From contig JAHDCF010000016.1 of assembly GCA_020630015.1 (NCBI GenBank), forward strand, positions 1-54,961: 54,961 nt of DNA, in the 5' to 3' direction. Made by a program: the position numbers and the translations under genes. The notes beneath the pieces are model-generated. The model ran no database searches and was not told where the DNA came from. It saw only the letters and a program-made list of their open reading frames with translations. Below are positions 26,721 to 40,981 of this stretch, piece after piece (the first letter of the stretch is position 1; each line of letters opens with the position of its first letter). The stretch is from Planktomarina sp. (GTDB taxonomy: Bacteria > Pseudomonadota > Alphaproteobacteria > Rhodobacterales > Rhodobacteraceae).

Positions 26721-28073
26721 TCAAACTTGGCCAAATTCCTTTTCCAACCATGTTTCCAACCAATGAATGGTGTAATCCCCGCTGTGCACGGCCTCTTCCT
26801 GCAACAAAGCATGAAAAAGCGGAACCGTGGTTTCAACGCCATCGACGATCAATTCGCCCAGTGCACGATGCAGCCGTGCCAAGGCAGATTGCCGGTCACG
26901 GCCATGAACAATCAATTTTCCGATCAAGCTGTCATAATATGGCGGGATTGAATATCCGTCGTACAAGGCAGAATCCATGCGAACACCAAGACCACCCGGC
27001 GCATGATACGCCGAAACCTTACCGGGGCGGGGCGCAAAACCGGGAAATGTTTCCGCGTTGATCCGCACCTCGATGGCATGGCCAGAGATTTCCAGATCTT
27101 CTTGTGCAAAGCTTAAGGGATCACCTTGGGCCACCAAGATTTGTTCACGGACCAGATCAACGCCAAAAATCGCCTCGGTTACTGGGTGTTCCACCTGAAG
27201 GCGGGTGTTCATTTCGATGAAATAGAACTCGCCTTTTTCATACAAGAATTCGATTGTACCGGCACCGATGTAATTAATCCGGGCGACGGCATCGGCACAA
27301 GTATTCCCGATTTTTGCGCGTTCTTCGGGGCTGATGCAGGGGCCGGGGGCCTCCTCAAATACTTTTTGATGGCGACGTTGCAGGGAACAATCGCGTTCCC
27401 CCAAATGCACGGCGTTGCCTTTGCCATCTCCAAAGACCTGAATTTCGATGTGGCGCGGCGTGGTCAGATATTTTTCGATGTAAACTTCATCATTGCCAAA
27501 GGCGGCTTTGCCTTCGGCCCGGGCCGCGCCAAATGCCGTTGGCATTTCTTCAGCGGAATTTGCCACCTTCATACCACGGCCACCGCCGCCTGCGGTCGCT
27601 TTGATGATTACTGGATACCCGAAATCTTCACCGATTTTCAAAGCGGTCTCCAGATCGGGAACCCCGCCATCAGATCCGGGAACACAAGGAACTCCCAGTG
27701 CTTTCATCGTGTCTTTGGCGCTGATTTTATCGCCCATGATACGGATGTGTTCTGCAGTTGGGCCAATAAATGTGATGTCGTGATCTTCAAGCGCCTGCAC
27801 AAATGCGGCGTTTTCGCTGAGAAAGCCGTACCCGGGATGAATGGCATCCGCGCCTGTTATTTCGGCGGCCGCGATGATCGCGGGAATGCAAAGATAACTG
27901 TCGGTGCTGGATGGTGGGCCAATGCAAACCGCTTCATCCGCCATTCGAACATGCATGGCATCCACATCAGCCGTCGAATGCACCGCGACAGTGGCAATTC
28001 CCATTTCGCGCGCGGCGCGAATGACACGCAGGGCGATTTCGCCCCGGTTGGCGACAAGAATTTTCTGAATCAT
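26721..28073 (-). CDS. accC: acetyl-CoA carboxylase biotin carboxylase subunit
   Basis: This 450-residue ATP-grasp enzyme carboxylates biotin on BCCP, the first step of fatty acid synthesis. The N-terminal [21 protein letters not shown], the glycine-rich ATP loop [14 protein letters not shown] (about 159-172) and the active-site [14 protein letters not shown] (about 287-300) are all present. The length is typical. The start shares a base with the accB stop (TAATG), so BCCP and carboxylase are made together. Confidence 0.96.
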
Positions 28074-28585
28074 TATTCCAAAATCACCAAAGGCGCCCCG
28101 AATTCGACAGGTGAACCATCTTCCACCAGAATGCGTTTAACCGTTCCACTGCGCGGTGCAGGAATTTGGTTCATTGTTTTCATGGCTTCGATGATCAGCA
28201 ATGTGTCGCCTTCGTTCACCTTTTGCCCAACGCTGATAAAGGACGGTGCGCCGGGTTCCGCCTGCATATAGATGGTGCCAACCATCGGGGATGGAACCGC
28301 ACCTGGGTGGGATGATGGATCGTCGGCTGCGGGTGCAGGGGCCTCTGCCGCTGCGGCGGGCGCTGCTGCCACTGGGGCGGCGGCCGGAGCGGGGGCCGGG
28401 GCGGCTGCCAGTGCGGCTGGGGCGGCAGTTGCAACCACTTGTTGGGCCTTGCTGACGCGCACTGTCAGGCTGTCGGCTTCACCGTATTCGCGGTCAACTT
28501 CGATTTCGGTCAAATCTTGATCATTCAGCAATTCTGCCAGTGCCTTAATAAAGGCGACGTCGGAGTCGTGCGGTTTCTTCGCCAT
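28073..28585 (-). CDS. accB: acetyl-CoA carboxylase biotin carboxyl carrier protein
   Basis: This 170-residue carrier has an N-terminal helical segment (about 1-50), an Ala/Pro-rich flexible linker (about 53-90) and a biotinyl domain (about 92-170). The biotinylated residue is Lys136 in EAMKTMNQ, and the protruding thumb region matches [13 protein letters not shown]. It is the first gene of the accB-accC(-aat) operon. The 250 bp upstream contain no other gene I can support. Confidence 0.95.
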
Positions 28586-28835: not shown

Positions 28836-30779
28836 TTAGCTGCGGTTCATCCGATTTTCGATCAGATCATCCACCACCGAAGGATCGGCAAGGGTGGATG
28901 TATCCCCCAAGGCGCCGAAATCATCTTCGGCCACTTTGCGCAGGATGCGGCGCATGATTTTGCCGGATCTGGTTTTTGGCAAACCCGGTGCCCATTGGAT
29001 CAAATCGGGTGATGCAATGGGGCCGATTTCTTTGCGCACCCAGTTGCGCAGTTCTGTGCGCAGATCCTCAGTCGGTTCTTCGCCGACCATCAAAGTAACA
29101 TAGCAATAGATGCCTTGGCCTTTGATCTCGTGCGGGTAACCAACCACAGCGGCTTCTGACACTTTGTCATGGGCCACCAACGCGCTCTCAACCTCGGCCG
29201 TTCCCATGCGGTGACCGGATACATTGATCACATCATCCACGCGGCCGGTGATCCAATAATCACCATCTTCATCCCGGCGACAGCCATCGCCCGTGAAATA
29301 GTACCCTTTGTAATCGCTGAAATAGGTTTTCACGAACCTTTCGTGATCCCCCCAAACGGTGCGCATCTGCCCCGGCCAGCTGTCTTTGATGCACAAAACA
29401 CCCTCGGCTGGATTTCCGGTGATTTCTTTTCCAGTTTGAGCATCCAAAACAATCGGTTCGATGCCAAAGAAAGGTTGTTGGCAAGAACCGGGTTTTGTGG
29501 CTGTTGCCCCGGGCAGGGGTGTCATGAGGTGACCGCCTGTTTCGGTTTGCCACCAGGTGTCGACGATGGGCGCTTTGCCTTTGCCCACAACATCGTTGTA
29601 CCAATTCCATGCCTCGGGATTGATGGGTTCACCCACGGTGCCCAAAACTTTGATGGACGACAGATCGTATTTTTCAACAAAGCTGTTGCCTTGCCCCATC
29701 AGCGCGCGAATGGCGGTTGGGGCGGTATAGAATTGGTTGACTTTGTGCTTTTCGCACACGGCCCAGAACCGACCAGCGTCGGGGTATGTTGGCACGCCTT
29801 CAAACATTAGCGTTGTCGCACCGTTGGCCAAGGGGCCATAAACGATATAGCTGTGCCCAGTCACCCAACCCACATCTGCGGTGCACCAATAGATATCCCC
29901 ATCGTGATAATCGAAGCTAATTTTATGGGTCATGGCTGCGTAGACAAGATACCCACCCGTGGTGTGCACAACACCCTTGGGCGCACCGGTGGAACCGGAG
30001 GTATACAGAATGAACAACGGGTCTTCGGCGTTCATCGGTTCTGGCGCACAATCGGCAGAGGCATCAGCCATCATCGCATTATAGCTGTGATCACGGCCGT
30101 CTTTGTTGCCGGGCCCGCCGTTGGTGCGTTCCACAACCAAGGTTGTTACATCCCCTGAAATCTCAAGCGCCTTATCAACGTTGGCCTTTAGAGGGGTGGC
30201 TTTGCCACCGCGCGGGGCCTCGTCTGCGGTGACAATCAGTTTGGCATCGCAAGCTGAAACACGGGCGGCCAGCGCCTCGGGCGAGAAGCCGCCAAATACG
30301 ATGGAATGAATGGCACCAACACGGTTACACGCCAGCATGGCATAGGCGGCCTCTGGGATCATGGGCATATAAAGGACAACACGATCCCCTTTGCCCACGC
30401 CCAAGGATTTATAAACATTGGCCAATTTGCACACCTGTTCGTGCAATTGGGCATAGGTGATGTGTTTGCTGTCGTCTGGATTATCGCCTTCCCAGATGAT
30501 TGCGGTTTGATCCCCGCGGGTGGCAAGGTGGCGATCAATGCAGTTGGCGGAAACGTTCAGGACACCATCTTCGTACCATTTGATGGATACATCCGGATGG
30601 GCATAGCTGACATTTTTGATTTTTGTGGGGGCCTTGATCCAATCCACGCGGTTGCTTTGTTCGGCCCAAAAGGCATCCGGATCTTTAATCGATGCGGCAT
30701 ACATATCTTTGTATTTGGCAGCATCCACATGGGATTTTGCAGAAAAATCAGATGATGGGGGGTACGTCTTGTCAGCCAT
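28836..30779 (-). CDS. acs: acetyl-CoA synthetase (AMP-forming)
   Basis: This 647-residue enzyme activates acetate to acetyl-CoA through acetyl-AMP. The AMP-binding loop [15 protein letters not shown] (about 265-279), the WWQTETGG motif (about 415-422), and the acetylatable Lys in [15 protein letters not shown] near the C-terminus are present. Deacetylation at that residue normally controls Acs. The length fits the family. It lies 104 bp downstream of livF on the same strand, separated by two palindromes. The context (ScfR regulator, symporter-kinase) suggests acetate-responsive expression. Confidence 0.95.
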
Positions 30780-30802
30780 GGCTGGTCCTTTCGTCGGGTC
30801 CT

Positions 30803-30823
30803 GTTCCGGATTTAATCCGGAAC
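30803..30823. repeat. perfect palindromic element upstream of acs
   Basis: GTTCCGGAT-tta-ATCCGGAAC is a perfect 9-bp inverted repeat with a 3-nt loop. It lies in the 104-bp gap between livF and acs and resembles short extragenic palindromes common in alphaproteobacteria. It could also act as an RNA hairpin affecting acs. Confidence 0.55.
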
Positions 30824-30850
30824 CTCATGGTTATGTGGTCTTTGAAAGTT

Positions 30851-30871
30851 GCCCCGGGCAAAGCCCGAGGC
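30851..30871. repeat. second palindromic element, possible liv terminator
   Basis: GCCCCGGGC-aaa-GCCCGAGGC forms a 9-bp stem with one mismatch, 13 bp past the livF stop codon on the minus strand. It could end or weaken the liv transcript before acs. It pairs with the element at 30803-30823 as a tandem palindrome. Confidence 0.5.
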
Positions 30872-30883
30872 ACAAAAGGGCGA

Positions 30884-31636
30884 TTAGATCGCCAAATATT
30901 TTTCGCGCAGTTTTTGATCGTCCAGCACTTCTTTTGCCGAACCATCATAAACAACGGTGCCTGTGTCCAAAATCACGGCGCGATCGGCCAGTTTAAGGGC
31001 GGCCACGGCGTTTTGTTCCACAATCACGGTTGTGATGCCTTGTTCGCGGATGTGATTCAGGGTCTTTGCAATTTCTTGCACAATCACCGGGGCCAAACCT
31101 TCGTACGGTTCATCCAGCAACAGAACCTTAATGTCGCGACACAAGGCACGACCAATGGCCAACATTTGTTGTTCACCACCAGACAATGTTACCCCATCTT
31201 GCTTGCGACGTTCCCCCAAGCGTGGAAACAGATCAAAAATCCGATCAATTCCCCATCCTTTGGGTGGGGCGATCTGGGCCAGTTGGAGGTTTTCTTCCAC
31301 CGTTAGGCCGGGAATGATCCGCCGATCCTCGGGCACAAGGCCAAGCCCCGCTTGCGATGCTTCGTGGCTGGCCATTTCGTGCAACGGTTGGTGATCAAGC
31401 CAGATTTCCCCTTTGGTCAATTCTGGGTCGCCCATCCGCGCAATGGTGCGCAGGGTGGATGTTTTCCCTGCGCCGTTGCGGCCCAAAAGGGCAAGGATCT
31501 CACCCTCGTGGATATTAAAGCTGACGCCTTGAACGATATAGCTTTCCCCGTAATAGGCATGAATATCATGTACGCTGAGAAAGGCCGGGGCCGTAGAGGC
31601 ATGGTTCGCATTTGGATCAAAAGGTTGGTTCATCAT
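30884..31636 (-). CDS. livF: branched-chain amino acid-type ABC transporter ATPase LivF
   Basis: This 250-residue ABC ATPase has Walker A LLGRNGAGKTSTLRTI (about 50-65), signature VTLSGGEQQMLAIGRAL (about 148-164), Walker B VLLLDEPYEGLAP, and a LivF-type ending. The consecutive ATG codons at 31636 and 31633 follow AAGGAT. It is the last gene of the minus-strand Liv cluster (binding protein, livH, livM, livG, livF). The ligand is not necessarily an amino acid; next to acs and an ScfR-like regulator it may be a short-chain acid or related compound. Confidence 0.9.
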   Translation of the reverse strand: MMNQPFDPNANHASTAPAFLSVHDIHAYYGESYIVQGVSFNIHEGEILALLGRNGAGKTSTLRTIARMGDPELTKGEIWLDHQPLHEMASHEASQAGLGLVPEDRRIIPGLTVEENLQLAQIAPPKGWGIDRIFDLFPRLGERRKQDGVTLSGGEQQMLAIGRALCRDIKVLLLDEPYEGLAPVIVQEIAKTLNHIREQGITTVIVEQNAVAALKLADRAVILDTGTVVYDGSAKEVLDDQKLREKYLAI

Positions 31637-31644
31637 ACTGATCC

Positions 31645-32403
31645 TTATACCTGTGCTTCGCCCAAATACGCTTCGCGCACTTTGGGGTGGCCTTTAATGT
31701 TGTCGGGCGTGTCTTCCACCAACGGTGTCCCTTGGGCCAAAACGGTGATCCGTTCGGCAAGGCTGAACACCACGTGCATGTCGTGTTCAATGATTGCGAT
31801 GGTGATGTCGCGCTGGTCCTTGATCTCTTTCAACAGATCAATGGTGTTGTTGGTATCGGCCCGCGCCATCCCGGCGGTGGGTTCATCCAACAAAAGCAAC
31901 CGAGGCTCTTGCGCCAAACACATGCCAATCTCAAGGCGGCGTTTATCCCCCCGAGACAGGCTTGAAGCATGCATGTCGCGCTTTTCAGCCATGTTCATAT
32001 CTTCCAGCACCTGTTCGGCGTGTTCGATGATGTCCTTTTGGCTGTTCACGCTGGGCCACGCGTTTAATTCGAAAGACCCATCGCGTTTGGCAAGGCATGG
32101 GATCATCATGTTTTCCATAACGCTGAGGTCGCCAAAGATTTCAGGGGTTTGAAACACCCGCGAAATACCCATCTGGTTAATCTGATAAGGCGTTTGGCCC
32201 AACACAGATTGTCCGTCGAACATGACAGATCCCGTGTCGGGGATCAGTTTGCCCACCAAACAGTTCAGAAGGGTGGATTTGCCAGCCCCATTGGGGCCGA
32301 TAATGGCATGGACAGAGTTTTCTGACACGCTGAGGTTTACATCCCCCAGCGCCTGCAGACCGCCGAAGCGTTTGTTCACACCTTTAACTTCAAGGATACC
32401 CAT
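31645..32403 (-). CDS. livG: branched-chain amino acid-type ABC transporter ATPase LivG
   Basis: This 252-residue ABC ATPase contains Walker A IGPNGAGKSTLLNCLVG (about 35-51) and signature SSLSRGDKRRLEIGMCLA (about 149-166), in which the common LSxGxQR is LSRGDKR, as in many LivG proteins. Walker B is LLLDEPTAGMA. It lies 8 bp from livF and 12 bp from livM, forming one operon. Confidence 0.9.
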   Translation of the reverse strand: MGILEVKGVNKRFGGLQALGDVNLSVSENSVHAIIGPNGAGKSTLLNCLVGKLIPDTGSVMFDGQSVLGQTPYQINQMGISRVFQTPEIFGDLSVMENMMIPCLAKRDGSFELNAWPSVNSQKDIIEHAEQVLEDMNMAEKRDMHASSLSRGDKRRLEIGMCLAQEPRLLLLDEPTAGMARADTNNTIDLLKEIKDQRDITIAIIEHDMHVVFSLAERITVLAQGTPLVEDTPDNIKGHPKVREAYLGEAQV

Positions 32404-32415
32404 AATTCTGCTTCC

Positions 32416-33606
32416 TTATTCTGCGGGTGTGGATTGTGCGGCGGTGTCTTTGGAACCACCACGGCGGAACAAACGGCCAATGCGTTGCCCCAGTTCAACC
32501 AAACCACCGGGCAGGAAGATGATCACGGCCATAAACAACAGGCCAAGTGTCAAATGCCAGCCTTTCCCGATGAAGGGGTGGATGATGGTAACGAGGAAAT
32601 CCTCGATCCCGTCAGGCATAAATTCAAACCACTTGTGCAAGATGTTGTCGTTGATCTTGGAAATGATGTTTTCCATGTATTTGATCATACCTGCGCCCAA
32701 AACGGGGCCAATCAACGTGCCAGCACCGCCCAAGATGGACATCAACACAACCTCGCCAGAGGCGGTCCAGAACATGCGTTCCGGGCCAACTTGTGTGTCC
32801 ATGGCAACCATAAGCCCACCAGCCAGACCCGCATACATGCCAGAGATGACAAAGGCCGCAAGTGTATAGGGCTTAGAGTTCAGACCGGTGTAATTCATGC
32901 GCTGTTGGTTGGATTTCACGGCTCGCAACATCATGCCGAATGGTGATCTGAACAGGCGGATCGACAGATAGAATGCGATCAACATGAACACCACGGCGAT
33001 GTAATATCCCGCATTGAAAGTGAACAACCAATTACCCAATTCAAGTTCAAAGCTGGACCGCATATCAAGGCCAAACAGGTTGGCACGTCCAATTTCACCT
33101 TCAGCCAGATTTGACAGCAATGGTGTGTCGGTTGCTTTGATTTGAAGCCCGGTTTCACCACCAGTGATTGGTGTCAAAACAGAGTAGGCAAGGGCATAAG
33201 ACATCTGCGCAAACGCAAGCGTGAGGATCGAAAAGTAAATCCCAGACCGGCGCAAAGAGATATATCCAACAACCACGGCAAACAAACCGGCGAACACAAT
33301 CGACATCAAGATTGCCGGAATAACGTTCAGGGTCAGAAGCTTCATCATCCAGATCGCTGCGTAAGACCCCACACCCAAGAAAGCGGCGTGACCAAACGAC
33401 AGGTATCCGGTCAGGCCGAACAGGATGTTAAAACCAATGGCAAAGATACCAAAAATGATGAACCGCTGCATCAAGTCAGGATAGCCTGCATTGAACTGAG
33501 CCAGCTCTGATGTTTCAGGGAATGGGTTCAGGATGAACGGTGCAAATACGGTCAAACAGATGACAATGATAAACAACCGCAAGTCTTTGTTATTGAGACC
33601 TAGCAT
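32416..33606 (-). CDS. livM: branched-chain amino acid-type ABC permease LivM
   Basis: This 396-residue permease has about nine or ten membrane segments. The LivM-type signature is [21 protein letters not shown] (about 64-84). The coupling region [23 protein letters not shown] (about 221-243) contacts the ATPase, followed by [20 protein letters not shown]. It is slightly longer than many LivM because of a periplasmic insertion near 170-190. It starts 3 bp after the livH stop. Confidence 0.9.
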
Positions 33607-33609
33607 GGA

Positions 33610-34635
33610 TTATTCCTCCATCACGCCTTTGCGACCCATAAGGCCACGTGGACGCGTCAGCAAAACGATGATGGCGACCAGATAGATGATAACCTGGTTG
33701 ATGCCTGGAATGATCGCGATGACCTGTGCCATCGATGCGAAACTTTCAAGAATGCCCAGCAGAAACCCTGCTAAGACGGCGCCGGGAAGCGATCCCATGC
33801 CACCCACAACAACCACCACAAAGCTGAGAACCAAGAAATCCATTCCCATATGATAGTTGGGTGAATTGATGGGCGTGTACATCACACCAGCCAGACCCGC
33901 CACACAGGCCGCGATGGCGAACATGATGGTAAAGCGCCGGTCAATGTTGATCCCCAAAAGCCCCACTGTTTCGCGATCTGCCATACCCGCACGCACAACC
34001 ATCCCAAAGGTGGTGAACTGCAAAAAGGCAAAGACCGCAGCAATGGTGATCATCGCAAAGGCAAAATAAATCAGGCGCCAATATGGATAGATTATGTTTT
34101 CCATCCCAATCAAAACGCCAAAGTCAAACGATCCGTCCAACGCCGCCGGAGCAGGGGTCGGGATCGGGTTTGCGCCATAGATTGCTTTGATGATTTCTTG
34201 CAAAACAATCGCCAAACCAAATGTCACAAGGATTTGGTCGGCATGGGGGCGCTTATAGAAATGTTTGATCAGGCCGCGTTCCATGATCACGCCAACCAAC
34301 ATCATGATGGGGATCGAAAACAAAATGGCCAATGGCACTGACCAGTTTATGATCATTTGCCCCGCATCCGCACCGAACCAATCGTAGACATACGGAATAT
34401 CCACTTTCAGCGGATTGCCCAGAAAATCTGTCCGCGTTTCATCAATGGTTTCGCGGCTTATGCTTAAAATACGCTGAAGTGTCACAGCACAAAATGCGCC
34501 GATCATAAACAGCGCACCATGGGCAAAGTTCACAACGCCCAAGGTTCCGAAAATCAAGGTCAATCCCAAAGCAATCAGCGCATACGCGCTGCCTTTGTCC
34601 AACCCATTAAGAATCTGCAAGATTAAGGCTTCCAT
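33610..34635 (-). CDS. livH: branched-chain amino acid-type ABC permease LivH
   Basis: This 341-residue permease partner of LivM has the LivH signature GLTLIFGTLGVVNFAHGALFM (about 24-44). It shows QILVTFGLAIVLQEI, the coupling loop FGMVVRAGMADRETVGLLGI (about 212-231) and GGMGSLPGAVLAGFLLGI. A hydrophilic stretch near residues 58-85 is longer than in E. coli LivH. It follows the binding-protein gene after a 93-bp gap with a hairpin. Confidence 0.9.
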   Translation of the reverse strand: MEALILQILNGLDKGSAYALIALGLTLIFGTLGVVNFAHGALFMIGAFCAVTLQRILSISRETIDETRTDFLGNPLKVDIPYVYDWFGADAGQMIINWSVPLAILFSIPIMMLVGVIMERGLIKHFYKRPHADQILVTFGLAIVLQEIIKAIYGANPIPTPAPAALDGSFDFGVLIGMENIIYPYWRLIYFAFAMITIAAVFAFLQFTTFGMVVRAGMADRETVGLLGINIDRRFTIMFAIAACVAGLAGVMYTPINSPNYHMGMDFLVLSFVVVVVGGMGSLPGAVLAGFLLGILESFASMAQVIAIIPGINQVIIYLVAIIVLLTRPRGLMGRKGVMEE

Positions 34636-34682
34636 GTCCCCACCTGGATCTTTGTGCCCGTTTGAACGGTCAGCAAGTTAGT

Positions 34683-34716
34683 ATGAAAAGAAGGGCAGGT
34701 CACATCGGACCTGCCC
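34683..34716 (-). terminator. intercistronic hairpin after the Liv binding-protein gene
   Basis: GGGCAGGTC (34693-34701) pairs perfectly with GACCTGCCC (34708-34716) over a 6-nt loop. On the minus strand it is followed by TTCTTTTCAT. It sits 12 bp past the binding-protein stop codon and before livH. Such partial terminators commonly keep binding-protein mRNA in excess over the permease genes. Confidence 0.7.
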
Positions 34717-34728
34717 AACAAAGATCGC

Positions 34729-36081
34729 TTATGCGCCAGGGTTACAAGACCCCAAAGTTGCTTCAGCACCACCCATTTGTGGGTGATCTGGCTCGTACAT
34801 CACCTGAGCGACAGGTGTGACTTCGACAACTTCCAGAAGGTCGAATTCTGATGTTGGGTTTTCTTTACCCTTCACAACCAGAACGTCTTTGAAACACTGG
34901 TGATCGGCGCCACGGTACAATGTCTTACCGTTGCCCAATCCGTCGAATTCAAAGTCTTCCAAAGCTTCTGCAACCGCACATGGGTTGAAGGACTTCGCAC
35001 GGTTTACAGCATCAGCATACAAAAGTGTCTGACAGTAAACTGTGTGCGCCGCCTGTGATGGCGGGAAGCCGTACTTGGTGCCGAATGATTTTGTGAAGGC
35101 TTTTGAACCTTCGTCAGTCAGTGACCAGTGCCAGTTTGTTGAACCGAAGATGCCTTTAACGTTTGCACCAGCACCACGTGCCATCAAACGAGAGTACAAA
35201 GGAACAACGATCTGGAAGTCTTTGTTGTTCACGACTTTGTCGCGCAGACCAAACTGAACCGCAGAGGTCAAAGAGTTGATCATGTTACCGCCATAGTGGT
35301 TCAGAACCAAAACGTCAGCATCTGTTTGAAGAACAGGCGCGATGTAAGAAGAGAAGTCAGTTTGTGTCAGTGGTGTCTTAACCGCGTTCACAGTTTCCCA
35401 ACCCATGCCTTCTGTCGCTTGAACAACAGCTTCTTCAGTTGTGTAACCCCAGTTATAGTCAGCGGTCAGGTGATATGCTTTACGATCTTTACCGTAGGCA
35501 TTCGCCAACACCGGCGCCAAAGCAGCACCTGACATATAGGAGTTAAAGAAGTGGCGGAAACCGTTTGCTTTACGGTCTTTACCGGTTGTGTCGTTTGAGT
35601 GTGTCAAACCAGCCATGAAGATGATGCCGGCTTCTTGGCACAAGGCCTGAACCGCAACAGCAACACCAGAAGACGAACCACCTGTGATCATCACAGCACC
35701 GTCTTTTTCGATCATGGATTTCGCAGACGCACGTGCAGCATCTGATTTGGTCTGAGTGTCACCTGTGACGTACTCTACCTTTTTGCCCAGGATGCCGTTG
35801 CCTTCCAAAGTTTTGGAAGAGAACGTGTTGATCATCCCGCCGTCGCCGCCACCGTTCAGGTGCTCTACCGCCAACTCATAGGCGCGCAGTTCGTCTGCAC
35901 CTTCGTCCGCGTATGGGCCTGATTGTGGAACGTTGAAGCCCAAGGTTACCGTGCTGCCGGTTGGCGCGTTGGTGAAACCAGAGTGGCTTCCAGCTGTGAG
36001 GATCGTGGGCAGAGCCAAACCGGCGCCTGCGGCGGCACCAGTTTTCAATACACCACGACGGGTCACATTAGATTTAGACAT
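34729..36081 (-). CDS. Liv-type periplasmic substrate-binding protein (Tat-exported)
   Basis: This 450-residue receptor starts with a twin-arginine signal, [20 protein letters not shown] (about 5-24), so it is exported folded by Tat. The mature part is a type I periplasmic-binding fold: VTLGFNVPQSGPYADEGADELRAYELAVEHLN, a DTQTKSDAARASAKSMIEKDGAVMITGGSSSG region that forms the first ligand lobe, and YNWGYTTEEAVV. A GGGAGGA site precedes ATG 36081. It heads the liv operon and is divergent from the ScfR-like regulator. It is longer than E. coli LivJ, resembling amide/urea-type receptors in size; the ligand is unknown. Confidence 0.88.
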   Translation of the reverse strand: MSKSNVTRRGVLKTGAAAGAGLALPTILTAGSHSGFTNAPTGSTVTLGFNVPQSGPYADEGADELRAYELAVEHLNGGGDGGMINTFSSKTLEGNGILGKKVEYVTGDTQTKSDAARASAKSMIEKDGAVMITGGSSSGVAVAVQALCQEAGIIFMAGLTHSNDTTGKDRKANGFRHFFNSYMSGAALAPVLANAYGKDRKAYHLTADYNWGYTTEEAVVQATEGMGWETVNAVKTPLTQTDFSSYIAPVLQTDADVLVLNHYGGNMINSLTSAVQFGLRDKVVNNKDFQIVVPLYSRLMARGAGANVKGIFGSTNWHWSLTDEGSKAFTKSFGTKYGFPPSQAAHTVYCQTLLYADAVNRAKSFNPCAVAEALEDFEFDGLGNGKTLYRGADHQCFKDVLVVKGKENPTSEFDLLEVVEVTPVAQVMYEPDHPQMGGAEATLGSCNPGA

Positions 36082-36215
36082 GAAGTGTCCTCCCGTTGAT
36101 TACGAGGGGGGCCATGTATGCTAACGATTTCCCCCCAAATACACTTAACAGTGTGTGTGCAATATCGCTGGGACGCTGAAAAGAAATCAACAAAACCCTT
36201 GAAACATTGAATTAT

Positions 36216-36290
36216 TTTGTAAAGATTTACACCATCCCACGGTGTACTTTGTAAATTAATTCTCTCGCACCTGCAGAAACTGCTTGCAAA
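36216..36290. promoter_or_regulatory. three TTTGTAAA/CTTGCAAA-type sites, candidate ScfR operator
   Basis: The 224-bp divergent gap (36082-36305) carries TTTGTAAA at 36216-36223, TTTGTAAA at 36248-36255 and CTTGCAAA at 36283-36290, about three helical turns apart. The first overlaps the perfect inverted repeat TGTAAA-GA-TTTACA (36218-36231). ScfR-family regulators (RamB, PccR) are reported to bind TTTGCAAA-like elements, so these may be the neighbouring regulator's own operator. The rest of the gap holds nothing else I can support. Confidence 0.5.
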
Positions 36291-36305
36291 TAAACAGGTT
36301 TTTTA

Positions 36306-37649
36306 ATGTCTCGGAAGATTTTGATCGGCACCCGCGTTCGCGAGAGACGCTTGTTGAAGGGGTTAAAGCAAGCGGAATTGGCCAACTTGGTTGGAATTTC
36401 TGGATCATATCTGAACCTGATCGAACACAATCGCCGCCGAATCGGGGGTAAACTGCTGGCCGATCTGGCACGCACGCTTGAGGTGGAACAATCCCTGCTG
36501 TCTGATGGGGTCGAGGCGGGCTTGATCGCGGATTTGCGCGATGCGGTTGAAGATCAACCCGCGAATGCAGACCGGGCAGAGGAACTGGCGGGTCGATTTC
36601 CCAGATGGGCAAAGGTGATCGTTTCGCAAAAGGCGCGGATTGCCGAATTGGAACAACGGGTCGCGGCGTTATCTGACAGGGTGTCCCACGATCCGTTTTT
36701 GTCAGAATCCTTACATGAAATCTTGTCCACCGTGACGGCTATTCATTCCACGGCCTCAATCTTGGTCGATCCTGAACAGATGAATGCCACGTGGCGCAAA
36801 AGGTTTTCCGACAACCTGTTTAGCGACAGTGAACGCTTGGCCAGCGCGGGCAAAGCTTTGGCAAAATATTTGGACAGTGACAAAGCCTCTGACTTTGAGG
36901 CCTTTTCCCCACATGATGAACTGGACCGTGCCATTCAATCGGTCGGTGGCCATTTTGAAGAGCTTGAAACAGGCAGGTTCGGTCCAGAAGGGGTGGCCAA
37001 ATCTGTGTTGCAATCCGTGTCGCCATCCGCATTGGCGCTGGGTTTAACGTATTTGGACCGATATCGGAAGGATGCCCAAGCCTTGCCGATGGATGTTTTG
37101 GTGCCTTTGTATCAACGGGTTGGATGTAATCCCGCCCGGATTGGGGAAGAAACGGGTGTGTCATTGCCCATCGTGTTGCGCAGGTTGGCGTCATTGCCGG
37201 CGGATATCACGGGCGGGCATGTGGGTGTGATCACCTGTGATGGCACCGGAACTTTGTTGCATAAATTGCCACCAGAAGGATTTTCCGTGCCCCGGGTGGG
37301 GGCGGCTTGTTCCCTTTGGCCTTTGTTTGGGGCCTTGTTGCAACCTTTGGTGCCATTGCATCGTGTGCTGGGGGCCAGCTTACGGGCAGGGGGATCAGGG
37401 GCCGATGGCACGGCAAACCTGTTTGATGCCTACACAATTTGTGAACCCATCGGGCAACCAAAGTTCAACGAAACCCCAACATATGAGGCAACCATGCTGT
37501 TGGTGCGCCGCACTGACGGGCGGGGGGTGTCGGATGTGTTGAATGTGGGTCCCGCATGCCGATTATGCCCGGTTACAGATTGCGCCGCTCGCCGGGAAAG
37601 ATCCGTTTTGGCGATGGGTTTTGACTCTGACCCCCTCAATAGGGTTTAG
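36306..37649 (+). CDS. XRE/ScfR-family (RamB-like) transcriptional regulator
   Basis: This is a 447-residue regulator. An N-terminal XRE helix-turn-helix (about 8-62; KQAELANLVGISGSYLNLIE) is followed by a coiled segment (about 105-125). The C-terminal DUF2083-type region ends in CRLCPVTDC (Cys418, 421, 426), the Cys cluster typical of short-chain fatty acyl regulators such as RamB and PccR. The usual IrrE-like HExxH metallopeptidase segment is not visible. Instead residues about 130-190 (SLHEILSTVTAIHSTAS) look like a histidine kinase dimerisation helix pair. It probably senses acyl-CoA state and controls liv/acs and itself. It lies 40 bp upstream of the receiver gene. Confidence 0.8.
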   Translation: MSRKILIGTRVRERRLLKGLKQAELANLVGISGSYLNLIEHNRRRIGGKLLADLARTLEVEQSLLSDGVEAGLIADLRDAVEDQPANADRAEELAGRFPRWAKVIVSQKARIAELEQRVAALSDRVSHDPFLSESLHEILSTVTAIHSTASILVDPEQMNATWRKRFSDNLFSDSERLASAGKALAKYLDSDKASDFEAFSPHDELDRAIQSVGGHFEELETGRFGPEGVAKSVLQSVSPSALALGLTYLDRYRKDAQALPMDVLVPLYQRVGCNPARIGEETGVSLPIVLRRLASLPADITGGHVGVITCDGTGTLLHKLPPEGFSVPRVGAACSLWPLFGALLQPLVPLHRVLGASLRAGGSGADGTANLFDAYTICEPIGQPKFNETPTYEATMLLVRRTDGRGVSDVLNVGPACRLCPVTDCAARRERSVLAMGFDSDPLNRV

Positions 37650-37689
37650 TGCGCCCAAGGCAGAATGATCATGCATCTAAAGGGGTGGG

Positions 37690-38064
37690 GTGGTGACAAA
37701 ACATATTTTGTTGATCGAAGATGAACCCAACATCATCGAAGCGATCACATTTATTTTGTTGCGAAAAGGGATTAAGGTGGATGCCCATTCAAATGGCGCA
37801 TCTGCGCTTGAAACTGTGAAATCCACAAATCCAGATGCGGTGATATTGGATGTGATGCTGCCCAATCGATCTGGGTTTGATATCTTACAAGACATCCGCG
37901 AAGATACTGATTTTGCAGAGATTCCAGTGATGATGTTGACGGCACGAGGGCAAACCAAAGATCGCGAAAGGGCGATGGAATTGGGGGCCACGGCCTATAT
38001 GACCAAACCATTTTCCAATTCAGATGTGATTGAGGCCATCACAGCTTTGTTGGAGGGTGCTTGA
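37690..38064 (+). CDS. single-domain response regulator (CheY-like receiver)
   Basis: This 124-residue protein is a complete receiver domain with no output domain. The acidic pocket is Glu10-Asp11, the phospho-acceptor is Asp54 in VILDVMLPNRSG, the switch Thr84 lies in MLTARG, and Lys106 lies in TKPF. Start GTG 37690 or GTG 37693, after an AAAGGGG site. It overlaps the small membrane-protein gene by one base (TGATG) and sits upstream of the symporter-histidine kinase. That kinase is its obvious phosphodonor. Unlike CrbR-type regulators it has no LuxR-like helix-turn-helix, so it must act through a partner protein. Confidence 0.9.
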   Translation: MVTKHILLIEDEPNIIEAITFILLRKGIKVDAHSNGASALETVKSTNPDAVILDVMLPNRSGFDILQDIREDTDFAEIPVMMLTARGQTKDRERAMELGATAYMTKPFSNSDVIEAITALLEGA

Positions 38065-38312
38065 TGGAAAACACCCCACAAAAGGCGCAAGGCCAAGGGC
38101 GGCGAAAGCTGATCGAATTTGCCATGATCCTTCCCTTTGGTGGGGCAATCTTGGTGGGGCTGCCTTTGCTGTGGCCCGCTGCAGGTGGGGCATCAGACCG
38201 AGGTGTCAGCACATCATCGGCGATGATTTATCTGTTTTCTGCATGGTTTGTGATGATTGTTTTGGCATCATGGCTGTCATGGCGTTTGCGCAGATATCAG
38301 GCTGACGACTAA
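38064..38312 (+). CDS. small two-helix membrane protein of the symporter-kinase operon
   Basis: I do not recognise a family for this 82-residue protein. A basic N-terminus precedes two hydrophobic segments, FAMILPFGGAILVGLPLLW (about 19-37) and IYLFSAWFVMIVLASWLSW (about 54-72), and the C-terminus is basic (RLRRYQ). This layout is like the small subunits that accompany solute:sodium symporters, for example YjcH/DUF485 beside ActP, though I cannot show homology. It is translationally coupled to the receiver gene upstream and ends 2 bp before the symporter-kinase start. Confidence 0.7.
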   Translation: MENTPQKAQGQGRRKLIEFAMILPFGGAILVGLPLLWPAAGGASDRGVSTSSAMIYLFSAWFVMIVLASWLSWRLRRYQADD

Positions 38313-38314
38313 CG

Positions 38315-40981
38315 ATGTTTTCCACGGATATTCTGATCGGGGTTTCCCTGATTTACGTGGCCTTCTTGTTCGCCGTGGCTTTTTTGGCCGAACGCGCAAA
38401 TCAACGCGGCCGGGCGAAATGGTTGCGATCCCCCTTAACATATACTTTGTCCCTGTCGGTTTATTGCACCGCTTGGACATTTTACGGTGCCGTGGGATTT
38501 GCCGCCCGTTCTGGGTTGGAATTTCTGACGATTTACCTTGGGCCAACGGGTGTCTTGATCGGTTGGTGGTGGGTGTTGCGCCGCCTTGTGCGGATCGGTC
38601 GGGCCGAACGAATTACATCCATTGCTGATTTGATTTCATCGCGGTTTGGGAAATCGACGTCGCTGGGTTGGATCGTGACGGTATTGGCCGTGATCGGGAC
38701 GACGCCTTATATTGCACTGCAACTGCAATCGGTGACCCTTTCGTTGGCGGTATTTGGTCAGGGCGACGGGGCGGTAAATGTGAACGCAGATGCAACAGCC
38801 CTGTGGGTGGCGGCCGGTTTGGCCGTTTTTACCATTGTGTTCGGCACCCGGAATTTGGACGTGAATGAACGTCACAGTGGTGTTGTGATGGCCATTGCGG
38901 TTGAGGCGGTGGTGAAACTTTTGGCGCTGTTGGCGGTGGGGGTGTTTGTGGTTTGGGGGTTGGCCGGGGGCATTGGGCCAACGCTGAATCTGATCGATAC
39001 CTCCCCAATTGCGGATTGGTCTGTTCCCACTGGCCGTTGGATCGGATTAACATTTTTGTCTGCGGCGGCCTTTTTGTGTCTGCCCCGGATGTATCAGGTT
39101 TTGGTGGTGGAAAATTCTGACGAACGGCATCTGGCCACGGCGGGTTGGGCGTTCCCATTTTATCTTTTGTTGATGTCTCTTTTTGTGGTGCCCATTGCCG
39201 TTGTGGGGTTAAAGATGATGCCCGCAGGCGCCAATCCTGACTTGTTTGTTTTGACGCTACCTTTGTCTGCAGGGCAAAACGAATTGGCGGTATTTGCCTT
39301 TTTGGGTGGATTTTCATCCGCCACGTCCATGGTGATTGTGGCTGCAATTGCGCTTTCCACGATGGTGTCAAACCACATCGTCACCCCGATTTGGCTGCGG
39401 GCCGCGGGTGAAGGGGCAACCGTATCGGGCGATATCAGAAGTGTTGTGATTTTATCGCGCCGTTTATCCATCGCCGCGATTTTGGGGCTGGGGTATGTGT
39501 ATTACCGCCTGTCGGGGGGTGGGGCGGCCTTGGCGGCCATCGGTTTGATCTCTTTTGCGGGTGTGGCGCAGGTTTTGCCGGTGATGCTGGGTGGCATTTT
39601 CTGGCGCGGGGCCACGCGCATTGGGGCAGCTGCTGGATTGATCGCCGGGTTTTTGGTGTGGGCTTACACGATGTTCTTGCCATCGGTTGGCACGGGAATG
39701 TTCCTATCCGACAGCATCTTGAACAACGGACTGTTTGGTCTGCATTGGTTGAAACCCCGTGCTTTGTTTGGAATTTCTGATCTTGATCCGGTTTTGCACG
39801 CGGTCTTCTGGTCTTTGTTAATCAACACATTGGTCTTTGTGATTGGATCATTGTTAACCAACCCCACCCCGTTGGAACGCATGCAGGCCTTTCAGTTTAT
39901 TACGGCCTTTGACAGTGGGGCATCCCCTCGCAGTTGGCGCAGTGGTGCCGCGGAATCAGAGGATTTGTTGTTGATGGCCCAGCGCATTTTGGGGGCAACT
40001 GAGGCGCAAAAATTGTTTCGACGATTTGCCCAAGATCAAGGGATTGAAGGATATCTGCCCAGCCCGACACCTGCATTCTTGGATGATTTGGAACGCGCTT
40101 TGGCGGGATCGGTTGGATCGGCCACCGCGCACGCCATGGTGGGGCAAATGGTGGCGGGATCGGCCGTCACAGTGGAGGATTTGATGGCGGTGGCAGATGA
40201 AACCGCTCAGATCATGGAATATTCGCATCAGTTGGAAACGAAATCCGCGGAACTGACATCCACGGCAACCCAGTTGCGTGACGCGAATGAAAAACTGATG
40301 CAGCTTTCAGTGCAAAAAGATGCGTTCCTCAGCCAGATCAGTCATGAATTGCGCACGCCAATGACATCGATCCGATCTTTTTCAGAGATTTTGCAAGACA
40401 AAGGTCTGAAGGCCGCCGATCGCGTGAAATACGCCACCATCATTTCAGATGAAACCCAACGCCTGACACGGCTTCTTGATGATTTGCTTGACCTCAGCGT
40501 TTTGGAAAACGGTCAGGTCACGCTGAACATTGAAACCGGTACATTGGGGCAAGTGTTGGATCAGGCCTTGGCGGCCACGGACATCAAGGGGCAGGTGACA
40601 GTGCTGCGCCCCAAATCGCGAGAGTCCCTCTCAATCACAACTGATCTTGATCGTCTTGCGCAGGTGGTTATCAATCTGATCACCAATGCGGCCAAATATT
40701 GCGATGCTGTTAAGCCCCAATTGAAAATTTTGGCGCGCGAAACTGACACTGGCATTGAAGTTGATTTTATCGACAACGGAAGTGGTGTCCCACGTGGCAA
40801 GCGAGATCTGATTTTTGAAAAATTTGCGCGTATCTCGGACGAGGCCAAGGCCGGAAGTGCCGGGTTGGGCCTCGCAATCTGTCGCGAAATTATGACCAAC
40901 CTTGGCGGCAGTATTGAATATTTGCCTGGGCAAAAAGGAGCGGCCTTCCGCCTGAGGTTGCCGCATCAACCAACCGTATGA
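38315..40981 (+). CDS. sodium:solute symporter-histidine kinase fusion (CrbS/CbrA-type)
   Basis: This is an 888-residue sensor kinase. About 13 membrane helices fill residues 1-515 and form an SLC5/SSS-type transporter (SLSVYCTAWTFYGAVGF near 47-63; FSSATSMVIVAAIALSTMVSN). A STAC-like linker (about 525-620) and a coiled segment follow. HisKA contains the phospho-His677 in SQISHELRTPM. HATPase_c has N-box VINLITNAAKYC, G1 DNGSGVPRG and G2 GSAGLGLAICREIM. No PAS domain is evident. CrbS and MxtR kinases with this architecture control acs in Vibrio and Pseudomonas, and CbrA senses carbon/nitrogen balance. With acs nearby, acetate sensing by transport or binding is the leading idea. Confidence 0.9.
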   Translation: MFSTDILIGVSLIYVAFLFAVAFLAERANQRGRAKWLRSPLTYTLSLSVYCTAWTFYGAVGFAARSGLEFLTIYLGPTGVLIGWWWVLRRLVRIGRAERITSIADLISSRFGKSTSLGWIVTVLAVIGTTPYIALQLQSVTLSLAVFGQGDGAVNVNADATALWVAAGLAVFTIVFGTRNLDVNERHSGVVMAIAVEAVVKLLALLAVGVFVVWGLAGGIGPTLNLIDTSPIADWSVPTGRWIGLTFLSAAAFLCLPRMYQVLVVENSDERHLATAGWAFPFYLLLMSLFVVPIAVVGLKMMPAGANPDLFVLTLPLSAGQNELAVFAFLGGFSSATSMVIVAAIALSTMVSNHIVTPIWLRAAGEGATVSGDIRSVVILSRRLSIAAILGLGYVYYRLSGGGAALAAIGLISFAGVAQVLPVMLGGIFWRGATRIGAAAGLIAGFLVWAYTMFLPSVGTGMFLSDSILNNGLFGLHWLKPRALFGISDLDPVLHAVFWSLLINTLVFVIGSLLTNPTPLERMQAFQFITAFDSGASPRSWRSGAAESEDLLLMAQRILGATEAQKLFRRFAQDQGIEGYLPSPTPAFLDDLERALAGSVGSATAHAMVGQMVAGSAVTVEDLMAVADETAQIMEYSHQLETKSAELTSTATQLRDANEKLMQLSVQKDAFLSQISHELRTPMTSIRSFSEILQDKGLKAADRVKYATIISDETQRLTRLLDDLLDLSVLENGQVTLNIETGTLGQVLDQALAATDIKGQVTVLRPKSRESLSITTDLDRLAQVVINLITNAAKYCDAVKPQLKILARETDTGIEVDFIDNGSGVPRGKRDLIFEKFARISDEAKAGSAGLGLAICREIMTNLGGSIEYLPGQKGAAFRLRLPHQPTV

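Follow-up and report, generated by a model that had tools for sequence, protein, structure and literature searches.

How could a symporter-like histidine kinase and a receiver without output domain control genes for acetate use that lie beside them on the opposite strand? This question is raised by positions 28836-40981 of contig JAHDCF010000016.1 from Planktomarina sp. (Rhodobacteraceae, Alphaproteobacteria; hereafter the family and the class), the whole stretch of 54,961 nucleotides that was analysed being called the window. Here acs, four liv-type importer genes and the gene of a periplasmic binding protein are found on the minus strand, and an ScfR-type regulator, the receiver, a small protein with two predicted transmembrane (TM) helices and the kinase are encoded on the plus strand. 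Two features that a first-pass annotation of this DNA had missed bear on the question: a segment of the regulator that resembles the dimerization and histidine phosphotransfer (DHp) domain of the neighbouring kinase, and a putative two-box operator in the divergent promoter region. With a probability of roughly 0.6, we read the locus as an acetate-use switch that would run from the kinase through the receiver and the DHp-bearing regulator to liv and acs. The features on which the argument is built are the following:

36216-36223 and 36248-36255, plus strand: the two boxes of the putative operator, TTTGTAAA-N24-TTTGTAAA (from promoter pair counts)
36306-37649, plus strand: DHp-bearing ScfR-type regulator, 447 aa (Pfam HTH_3 and ScfRs)
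36654-36899, plus strand: DHp-like segment of the regulator, residues 117-198 (profile homology to the DHp of the neighbouring kinase)
36714-36716, plus strand: phosphoacceptor-like histidine H137 of the regulator (H-box alignment)
37690-38064, plus strand: output-less receiver, 124 aa (PF00072, E 2.2e-28), with D54 at 37849-37851
38315-40981, plus strand: SSS-type histidine kinase, 888 aa (HisKA, HATPase_c)
40316-40513, plus strand: HisKA/DHp of the kinase, residues 668-733 (Pfam HisKA)

A DHp-like segment in an ScfR-type regulator

Residues 117-198 of the regulator read 'SHDPFLSESLHEILSTVTAIHSTASIL...RF..NL..DSERLASAG', and the neighbouring kinase reads 'QKDAFLSQISHELRTPMTSIRSFSEIL'. The comparison of this segment with the kinase DHp by hhalign (one comparison) gave a probability of 97.1, an E-value of 6.7e-11 and a score of 61.0; as controls, four further kinase-regulator region pairs scored 11-13, and 100 column shuffles did not exceed 23.2. 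When a hidden Markov model (HMM) of the regulator segment was run against the 21 HisKA loci of its own genome, the neighbouring kinase came first (21.7 bits, E 7e-7) and the next locus reached 11.1 bits. In the opposite direction, the HMM of the kinase DHp matched 68 of 68 regulators (E 5e-13 to 5e-5 in a search of these 68 proteins) and, among all frames of the loci, 77 of the 84 family regulators at E≤1e-3. In loci from outside the family, the kinase HMM scored up to 65 bits within the regulator, and for at least 8 of 30 loci of the class a tblastn match of the kinase protein fell on the regulator gene, the best kinase match per locus being the one kept; in one genome (L192) the two DHps are 58% identical. 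The Pfam HisKA model itself was matched by 15 of the 68 regulators at E≤10 (best 9.3e-4) and not by the window member.

Among the ScfRs compared, the segment is confined to one type. A search of 288 whole genomes of the class with the segment profile (A4) returned 84 places at E≤1e-5, namely 37 DHp-type regulators, 41 SSS-kinases of the present type and 6 others, and none of the 85 other ScfR rows of these genomes was among them. In a tree of 101 DHp segments, for which the family rows were thinned to roughly a quarter, 36 regulators grouped together (support 0.98) beside the DHps of SSS-kinases (0.59-0.73). The DHp of the regulator is therefore likely, although this is not firmly resolved, to descend from the lineage of the SSS-kinase DHps. 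Of the regulators, 82 of 84 in the family and 21 of 24 from outside retain the histidine, and neither consensus line has the H-box proline.

The remainder of the protein is of the ScfR type, with a helix-turn-helix (HTH), a coiled coil, the DHp-like hairpin and an ScfR/PrpR-like core containing C335, C418, C421 and C426. The window regulator passes the PF09856 cut-off narrowly (24.6 bits, cut-off 24.0), and all 68 orthologs match the model at E≤10 (best 2.1e-23). In the family alignment (A3, 67 of 84 ScfR matches, after 6 with a stop in the reference and 11 outside the length or coverage limits were dropped), C335, C418 and C421 are present in 67 of 67 rows and C426 in 66; outside the family all four are present in 26 of 26 rows. 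An iron-sulfur (Fe-S) cluster would probably be formed by this core, on the model of PrpR, whose ligands are a Cys plus C-X2-C-X4-C according to the available sections of PMC6765138. Structures of PrpR match the regulator profile at positions 231-430 (E 6.5e-33) and weakly at 58-135, and positions 136-202 find no counterpart in them. The RamB model NF038139 gave 72.1 bits over residues 7-129 only, below its equivalog cut-off (700 bits, 465 positions). In an AlphaFold2 model with a mean predicted local distance difference test (pLDDT) of 87.3, the hairpin is formed by helices 130-154 and 161-194 (pLDDT 86-94 over residues 131-190) and preceded by a coiled coil at 99-126. At the position of the adenine-stacking H319 of PrpR, which was read by eye, Arg is found in 64 of 67 family rows and His in 19 of 26 outside; because of this Arg, acyl-coenzyme A (acyl-CoA) sensing in the manner of PrpR may be weakened in the window regulator, while the fold assignment is unaffected. 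The counterpart of the IrrE-like DIII of PrpR looks shortened in the family.

Regulator and kinase occur together

The 288 genomes contained 121 PF09856 rows, some of them fragments, of which 36 were DHp-type and 85 were others. A full-length SSS-kinase (>650 bits) lay within 15 kb of 32 of the 36 DHp-type ScfRs and of none of the 85 other rows. At the level of genomes, the kinase was present in 37 of 37 with a DHp-type regulator and in 7 of 251 without it (Fisher p 6e-40, kinship ignored).

The kinase comprises HisKA (668-733) and HATPase_c (777-885) and ends at residue 888. Its residues 1-460 match PDB chain 10ed_A, a solved 'histidine kinase' (E 4e-73), and a simple scan found 12 hydrophobic stretches in its membrane part, so that the symporter-like membrane part fused to HisKA and HATPase, as first annotated, is borne out; the Pfam SSF model was reached by 2 of 21 orthologs. 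The kinase alignment (A5) held 20 hand-picked sequences of the 87 listed. As also described at the outset, the receiver has no DNA-binding or other output domain, Response_reg being its only Pfam match over 124 aa. In an alignment of 32 (A2, the window and 31 hand-picked sequences of 88 relatives), D11, E12, D54 and K106 do not vary, and at least 90% of the sequences have T84.

Gene organization and conservation of the block

All ten genes of the first annotation were found again at the same positions and on the same strands. Besides those given above, the locus contains:

28836-30779, minus strand: acs, acetate--CoA ligase, 647 aa (TIGR02188, 1003 bits, cut-off 725)
30884-31636, minus strand: livF-type ABC ATPase, 250 aa (PF00005; best NCBIfam models UrtE and LivF, both under cut-off)
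31645-32403, minus strand: livG-type ABC ATPase, 252 aa (PF00005, PF12399)
32416-33606, minus strand: livM-type permease, 396 aa (PF02653)
33610-34635, minus strand: livH-type permease, 341 aa (PF02653)
34693-34716, minus strand: terminator-like stem in the gap between binding protein and livH (9 pairs, then a T-rich tail)
34729-36081, minus strand: periplasmic binding protein, 450 aa, with a Tat-like leader (PF13458, 1e-66)
38064-38312, plus strand: 82-aa protein with two predicted TM helices (hydrophobic stretches; its ATG overlaps the receiver stop)

The gaps within the liv operon are of 3-93 bp and acs follows livF after 104 bp; on the plus strand the gaps of 40, -1 and 2 bp correspond to operon spacing. 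The leader of the binding protein scored 21.3 bits with TAT_signal, slightly under the cut-off of 22.7. The stem at 34693-34716 could allow more binding protein than permease to be made; terminator-like sites in the region show no excess (11, and 9.9 in shuffles). The 82-aa protein has no Pfam or NCBIfam match, and its two predicted helices recur: in 84 of 87 loci, a simple hydropathy scan detected two hydrophobic stretches in an open frame that separates the receiver from the kinase, which upholds the two-helix protein of the first annotation. Adjoining acs on the same strand, window positions 26721-28585 carry biotin carboxylase and biotin carrier protein genes of accC and accB type.

Kinase orthologs (>600 bits) were present in 90 of 100 family genomes, the own genome included (99 genera), and the surroundings of the other 89 kinases were retrieved for counts of gene content. 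By HMM, these loci contained ScfR in 84, the binding protein in 66, at least three liv genes in 65 and acs in 41. The receiver was matched by tblastn in 88 of the 89 and in 83 under a stricter HMM filter. In 11 of the 89 cases the stretch extends less than 9.5 kb upstream, so the gene absences are upper bounds. In 39 of the 89, acs lies directly behind livF on the same strand, with a gap of 14-299 bp (median 82). The binding protein is 71-88% identical to 65 family orthologs. In the 10 family genomes without the kinase, 8 gave weak matches to the window ScfR (best 63 bits), and no DHp match was found in the full-length ScfRs of five loci from such genomes (L110-L113, L119).

A regulator profile search of named contigs, in which 80 of 586 relatives were kept, gave 52 full-length loci, from genera that include Phaeobacter, Ruegeria, Roseovarius, Leisingera, Tropicimonas and Rhodovulum. 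The kinase was present in all 52, the receiver in 50, the binding protein in 44, all four liv genes in 43 and acs in 18.

In the 288 class genomes, the regulator profile matched 41 at E≤1e-30; the regulator was DHp-type in 37 and without DHp in 4 (G254, G317, G336, G358). Regulator and kinase occurred together in 37 of the 288, from 20 families by the labels of the search itself. From outside the family, 28 loci were retrieved wide, 24 of them with a DHp-bearing regulator, out of 33 such outside genomes; the remaining ones are known from short loci only and G335 from search rows only. The binding protein and four liv genes were present in 20 of these 24 loci and a receiver or kinase was within the stretch in 22, while the four outside loci without DHp (L194, L196, L197, L198) have no binding protein, liv set, receiver or kinase there. 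In L173 the kinase is present and a receiver match is absent within the stretch. In L281 (G288) acs lies directly before the receiver-kinase pair, with the DHp-type ScfR and liv on another contig.

The block is not a product of chance, because its gene order is kept across the family and beyond. The first-pass annotation had made its reading depend on a gene order conserved beyond close relatives, and such conservation was found, in 84 of 89 family loci and in 20 families of the class. The block is real, widely conserved and more specific than had been guessed.

A putative two-box operator and its relation to acs

The putative operator of the window (36216-36255) precedes the regulator by 51 bp and the binding protein by 135 bp, and it is the sole exact copy in its genome. 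Of 67 divergent intergenic regions (the one in the window and those of 66 loci), 54 contain the pair TTTGTAAA-N24-TTTGTAAA (spacing 32, at most 2 mismatches), and other spacings between 10 and 74 gave at most 13.

The pair is also found before acs genes that have left the block. A sample of 30 genomes (16 that lack liv next to the ScfR, 14 with liv and no acs behind it) contained acs in 28, with 30 genes in all, and the 420 bp before acs were scanned for the pair at spacing 31 or 32 with at most 2 mismatches. It was present before 13 of 20 displaced acs genes (in 30 dinucleotide shuffles, mean 0.07 and largest 1) and before 6 of 9 further ones, which makes 19 of 29. In genomes lacking kinase and regulator, the pair was absent from 9 of 9 acs promoters (p 0.0011), the tenth acs starting its contig, so that 9 were tested. 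It was also absent before 39 of 39 acs genes directly behind livF (p 6e-10). Because the pair precedes 19 of 29 displaced and none of 39 liv-linked acs genes, acs seems to be served by the liv promoter where it follows liv and to carry the operator once it has moved away. In the 16 loci without liv, the pair (spacing 32, 2 mismatches) was absent from 16 of 16 ScfR promoters, which suggests that the operator serves liv and acs rather than the regulator gene. The association of the block with acs in the first annotation thereby acquires a basis, a putative operator shared by 54 of 67 divergent promoters and 19 of 29 displaced acs genes.

A TTTGCAAA pair with the same 32-bp spacing was seen on both strands at C30:9200-9239 of the own genome, whose other ScfR gene is about 2 kb away (C30:6500-6970). 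It is perhaps the own operator of that regulator.

Proposed mechanism

The gene order, the domain homology, the co-occurrence and the shared operator are direct observations. As judged from the adjacency of the genes and from the intact residues, the symporter-like kinase would phosphorylate the output-less receiver. The receiver has an obvious candidate target because the regulator carries a relative of the phosphate-handling domain of the kinase, and by this homology it would act on the DHp of the regulator, which would present once more the surface familiar to it from the kinase. By docking on this hairpin, and in most lineages by passing phosphate to H137, the receiver would alter the geometry of the regulator dimer, and the altered geometry would change its grip on the two-box operator. 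Binding of the regulator to this operator is suggested by its position and by the paired boxes of RamB. The operator would in turn drive the liv operon and the acs behind it, or acs alone where this gene has moved away. The signal would then flow from kinase to regulator. The early guess of a possible step from receiver to ScfR gains a physical basis from the DHp-like domain of the ScfR, which is accompanied by the kinase in 37 of 37 genomes and was matched in none of the 85 other ScfR rows.

Tentatively, and with doubt slightly outweighing conviction, we would see here a relay that ends on a histidine and not on an aspartate, in which the output protein took up the DHp of the lineage of its own kinase. 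Such a relay would be a counterpart of the acetate switch across many families of the class; the receiver would pass phosphate, or dock, from DHp to DHp, and the Fe-S core would join the phosphate signal with the metabolic state.

Several observations weigh against the switch proposed here. With the segment alone, a PDB sequence search returned no kinase (best row RRP6, E 0.11), and in fold searches with the hairpin alone unrelated hairpins tied with HK853; the full regulator model returned, among the 50 rows shown, PrpR, HTH proteins, a few others and no kinase. H137 is replaced by Y in L028 and L108 of the family and, outside, by F in L193 and L195 and by Q in L187. Because of these 5 replacements in 108 regulators, phosphotransfer to H137 cannot be universal. 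The acid next to the histidine (Glu or Asp) is kept in 73 of 84 family regulators and in only 3 of 24 outside. The two DHps of the same genome are no more alike in the family than those of different genomes (0.303 against 0.303), and outside there is a small excess (0.401 against 0.385, reached by 15 of 2000 permutations) that includes kinship.

The loss of the acid and of the H-box proline beside a kept histidine would be expected if the ATP step had gone and the receiver contact had been retained. In the DivK-DivL pair an output-less receiver reads a DHp surface and the histidine is not needed; by analogy, docking without phosphotransfer would have to suffice in some lineages. In L187, L193 and L195 the segment is otherwise kept despite Q or F at the histidine. 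A pairing of H137 loss with kinase loss was considered and rejected, as G298 and G204 (H to Q) retain receiver and kinase elsewhere.

The co-occurrence and the operator are not free of exceptions either. Four of the 36 DHp-type ScfRs do not lie within 15 kb of a kinase, and seven genomes have the kinase without the regulator. With up to 2 mismatches allowed, the own genome contains 3 forward copies and 1 reverse copy of the pair; the reversed control pattern gave 5 and 1, and it is therefore the exact copy alone that is distinctive. Ten of the 29 displaced acs genes have no operator at 2 mismatches, and the thirtieth acs, which lies beside the ScfR in L096, is without the pair. In five of the seven regulator-less genomes (L287, L286, L289, L283, L288), and in family locus L109, a PAS/exonuclease-type gene is found at the receiver-kinase pair, in the five genomes between these two genes. 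The only one scanned (L287:10936-13083, minus strand) encodes a PAS domain, an exonuclease domain and a HisKA-like stretch that scores below the Pfam cut-off and whose H-box, by eye, has no histidine; such a protein may serve the receiver as another DHp-bearing partner. In another family, L294 (G136) has a kinase of CrbS size (1151 aa), with liv-type genes and the beginning of an acs-like frame nearby, and from this locus the link between liv and SSS-kinases may extend to larger kinases.

Alternative explanations

The alternative that survives best concerns the importer. From its putative co-regulation with acs, the transporter would carry acetate, a short-chain acid or a precursor of these, and yet it could quite possibly be an ordinary importer for amino acids or of urea type, placed beside acs for nitrogen or general carbon supply, a view that we find less attractive without discarding it. 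The best NCBIfam models of its proteins are of Urt and Liv types, although LivF, LivG, LivM and LivH stay under every listed Liv or Urt cut-off, and against it stand the promoter region and operator that importer and acs have in common. The sections available of PMC10130141 (on R. pomeroyi transporters), PMC12632250 and PMC9007349 hold no hint of substrate concerning this importer; in those of PMC12632250, a transposon screen of C. sphaeroides, the acetate-compromised mutants named are carbon pathway genes and Rsp_0653, and no such locus. Upstream of the ScfR in the 16 liv-less loci, where frames were viewed without family search, no replacement transporter was recognised, only the acs of L096.

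A second alternative, which we hold to be unlikely, is that the DHp of the regulator is a mere dimerisation hairpin left from an old gene fusion. The regulator would then sense acyl-CoA alone, and the receiver would be a phosphate sink or have another target. According to the accessible portions of PMC6765138 and PMC10370305, PrpR and RamB work through CoA esters that they bind, and both the five losses of H137 and the lack of covariation between same-genome DHps in the family would agree with a passive hairpin. Such a hairpin would leave three facts to be accounted for: the histidine is otherwise near-invariant despite the absent ATPase domain, a kinase is nearby for 32 of 36 DHp-type ScfRs against 0 of 85 others, and the counterpart of the CoA-contacting PrpR H319 is Arg in 64 of 67 family rows.

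It is improbable, in our view, that kinase and regulator pair directly through their related DHps, with H137 phosphorylated or a mixed bundle formed, and that the receiver only tunes the exchange. The kinase DHp is indeed the best match of the regulator segment, in its own genome and in the class sample. In HisKA kinases, however, the acid next to the histidine is needed for phosphorylation from ATP, and it has been kept in 3 of 24 outside regulators only; furthermore, a receiver match is found in 88 of 89 family stretches.

Equally improbable is that the operator is bound by some other protein (RamB, PccR or an unrelated factor) and that something else holds the block together: other ScfRs do use paired boxes (RamB two, with an 18-bp spacer, in the consulted part of PMC10370305) and the TTTGCAAA pair lies near another ScfR gene, but the operator is missing from the acs promoters of 9 of 9 module-lacking genomes and its sole exact copy in the genome is in the divergent promoter of the regulator itself.

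Comparison with known systems

Nearest in purpose to the proposed switch are CrbS/CrbR (MxtR/ErdR) and the SLC5/STAC kinases, with which it has in common a symporter-like histidine kinase and acs as a target, here a putative one. CrbS, a hybrid kinase, contains PAS and has a receiver at its C-terminus, and its signal goes to a LuxR-type regulator (available sections of PMC7918813 and PMC9100948). The alphaproteobacterium Sinorhizobium fredii needs a CrbS/R of this kind, with a hybrid kinase and a regulator of LuxR type, to grow on acetate (same sections of PMC9100948). In contrast, the window kinase has 888 aa and ends at HATPase_c, the receiver is separate and output-less, and the regulator is a different one. 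The likeness to CrbS/R that had been drawn at first stands for the front half of the kinase and fails for the rest: PAS was absent from 21 kinase orthologs at E≤1, and Pfam found no LuxR-type domain in the ten window proteins.

With the ScfR/IsaR regulators (PrpR, RamB, PccR, MccR) the window regulator has in common the XRE-type HTH, the C-terminal ScfR core and the Cys plus C-X2-C-X4-C, as well as, putatively, paired operator boxes and a relation to acyl-CoA metabolism. It differs from them in the DHp-like hairpin between HTH and core, in a DIII part that looks shortened, and in its place with a receiver and kinase, which none of the 85 other ScfR rows has. In the open-licence literature searched, whose scope leaves out the 2015 ScfR classification, no description of an ScfR with DHp was recognised.

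The Spo0F/Spo0B and CckA-ChpT phosphorelays combine an output-less or linking receiver with a phosphotransfer protein of DHp fold that has no ATPase. Here, in contrast, the DHp-fold module lies within a DNA-binding regulator. DivL differs again, as it is a membrane pseudokinase and not a transcription factor.

Significance

It is often not known what output-less receivers act on, and in this locus the sequence points to a target, a DHp-bearing transcription factor. If the proposed switch is true, the regulator would represent a type between response regulators and one-component regulators. The shared operator makes its regulon testable, and a general search is opened for captured DHp hairpins in other DNA-binding families beside lone receivers. 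For the Rhodobacteraceae and other relatives of the marine Roseobacter group, the proposed switch may explain how acs is controlled without CrbR in most of the family and in 37 of the 288 genomes of the class.

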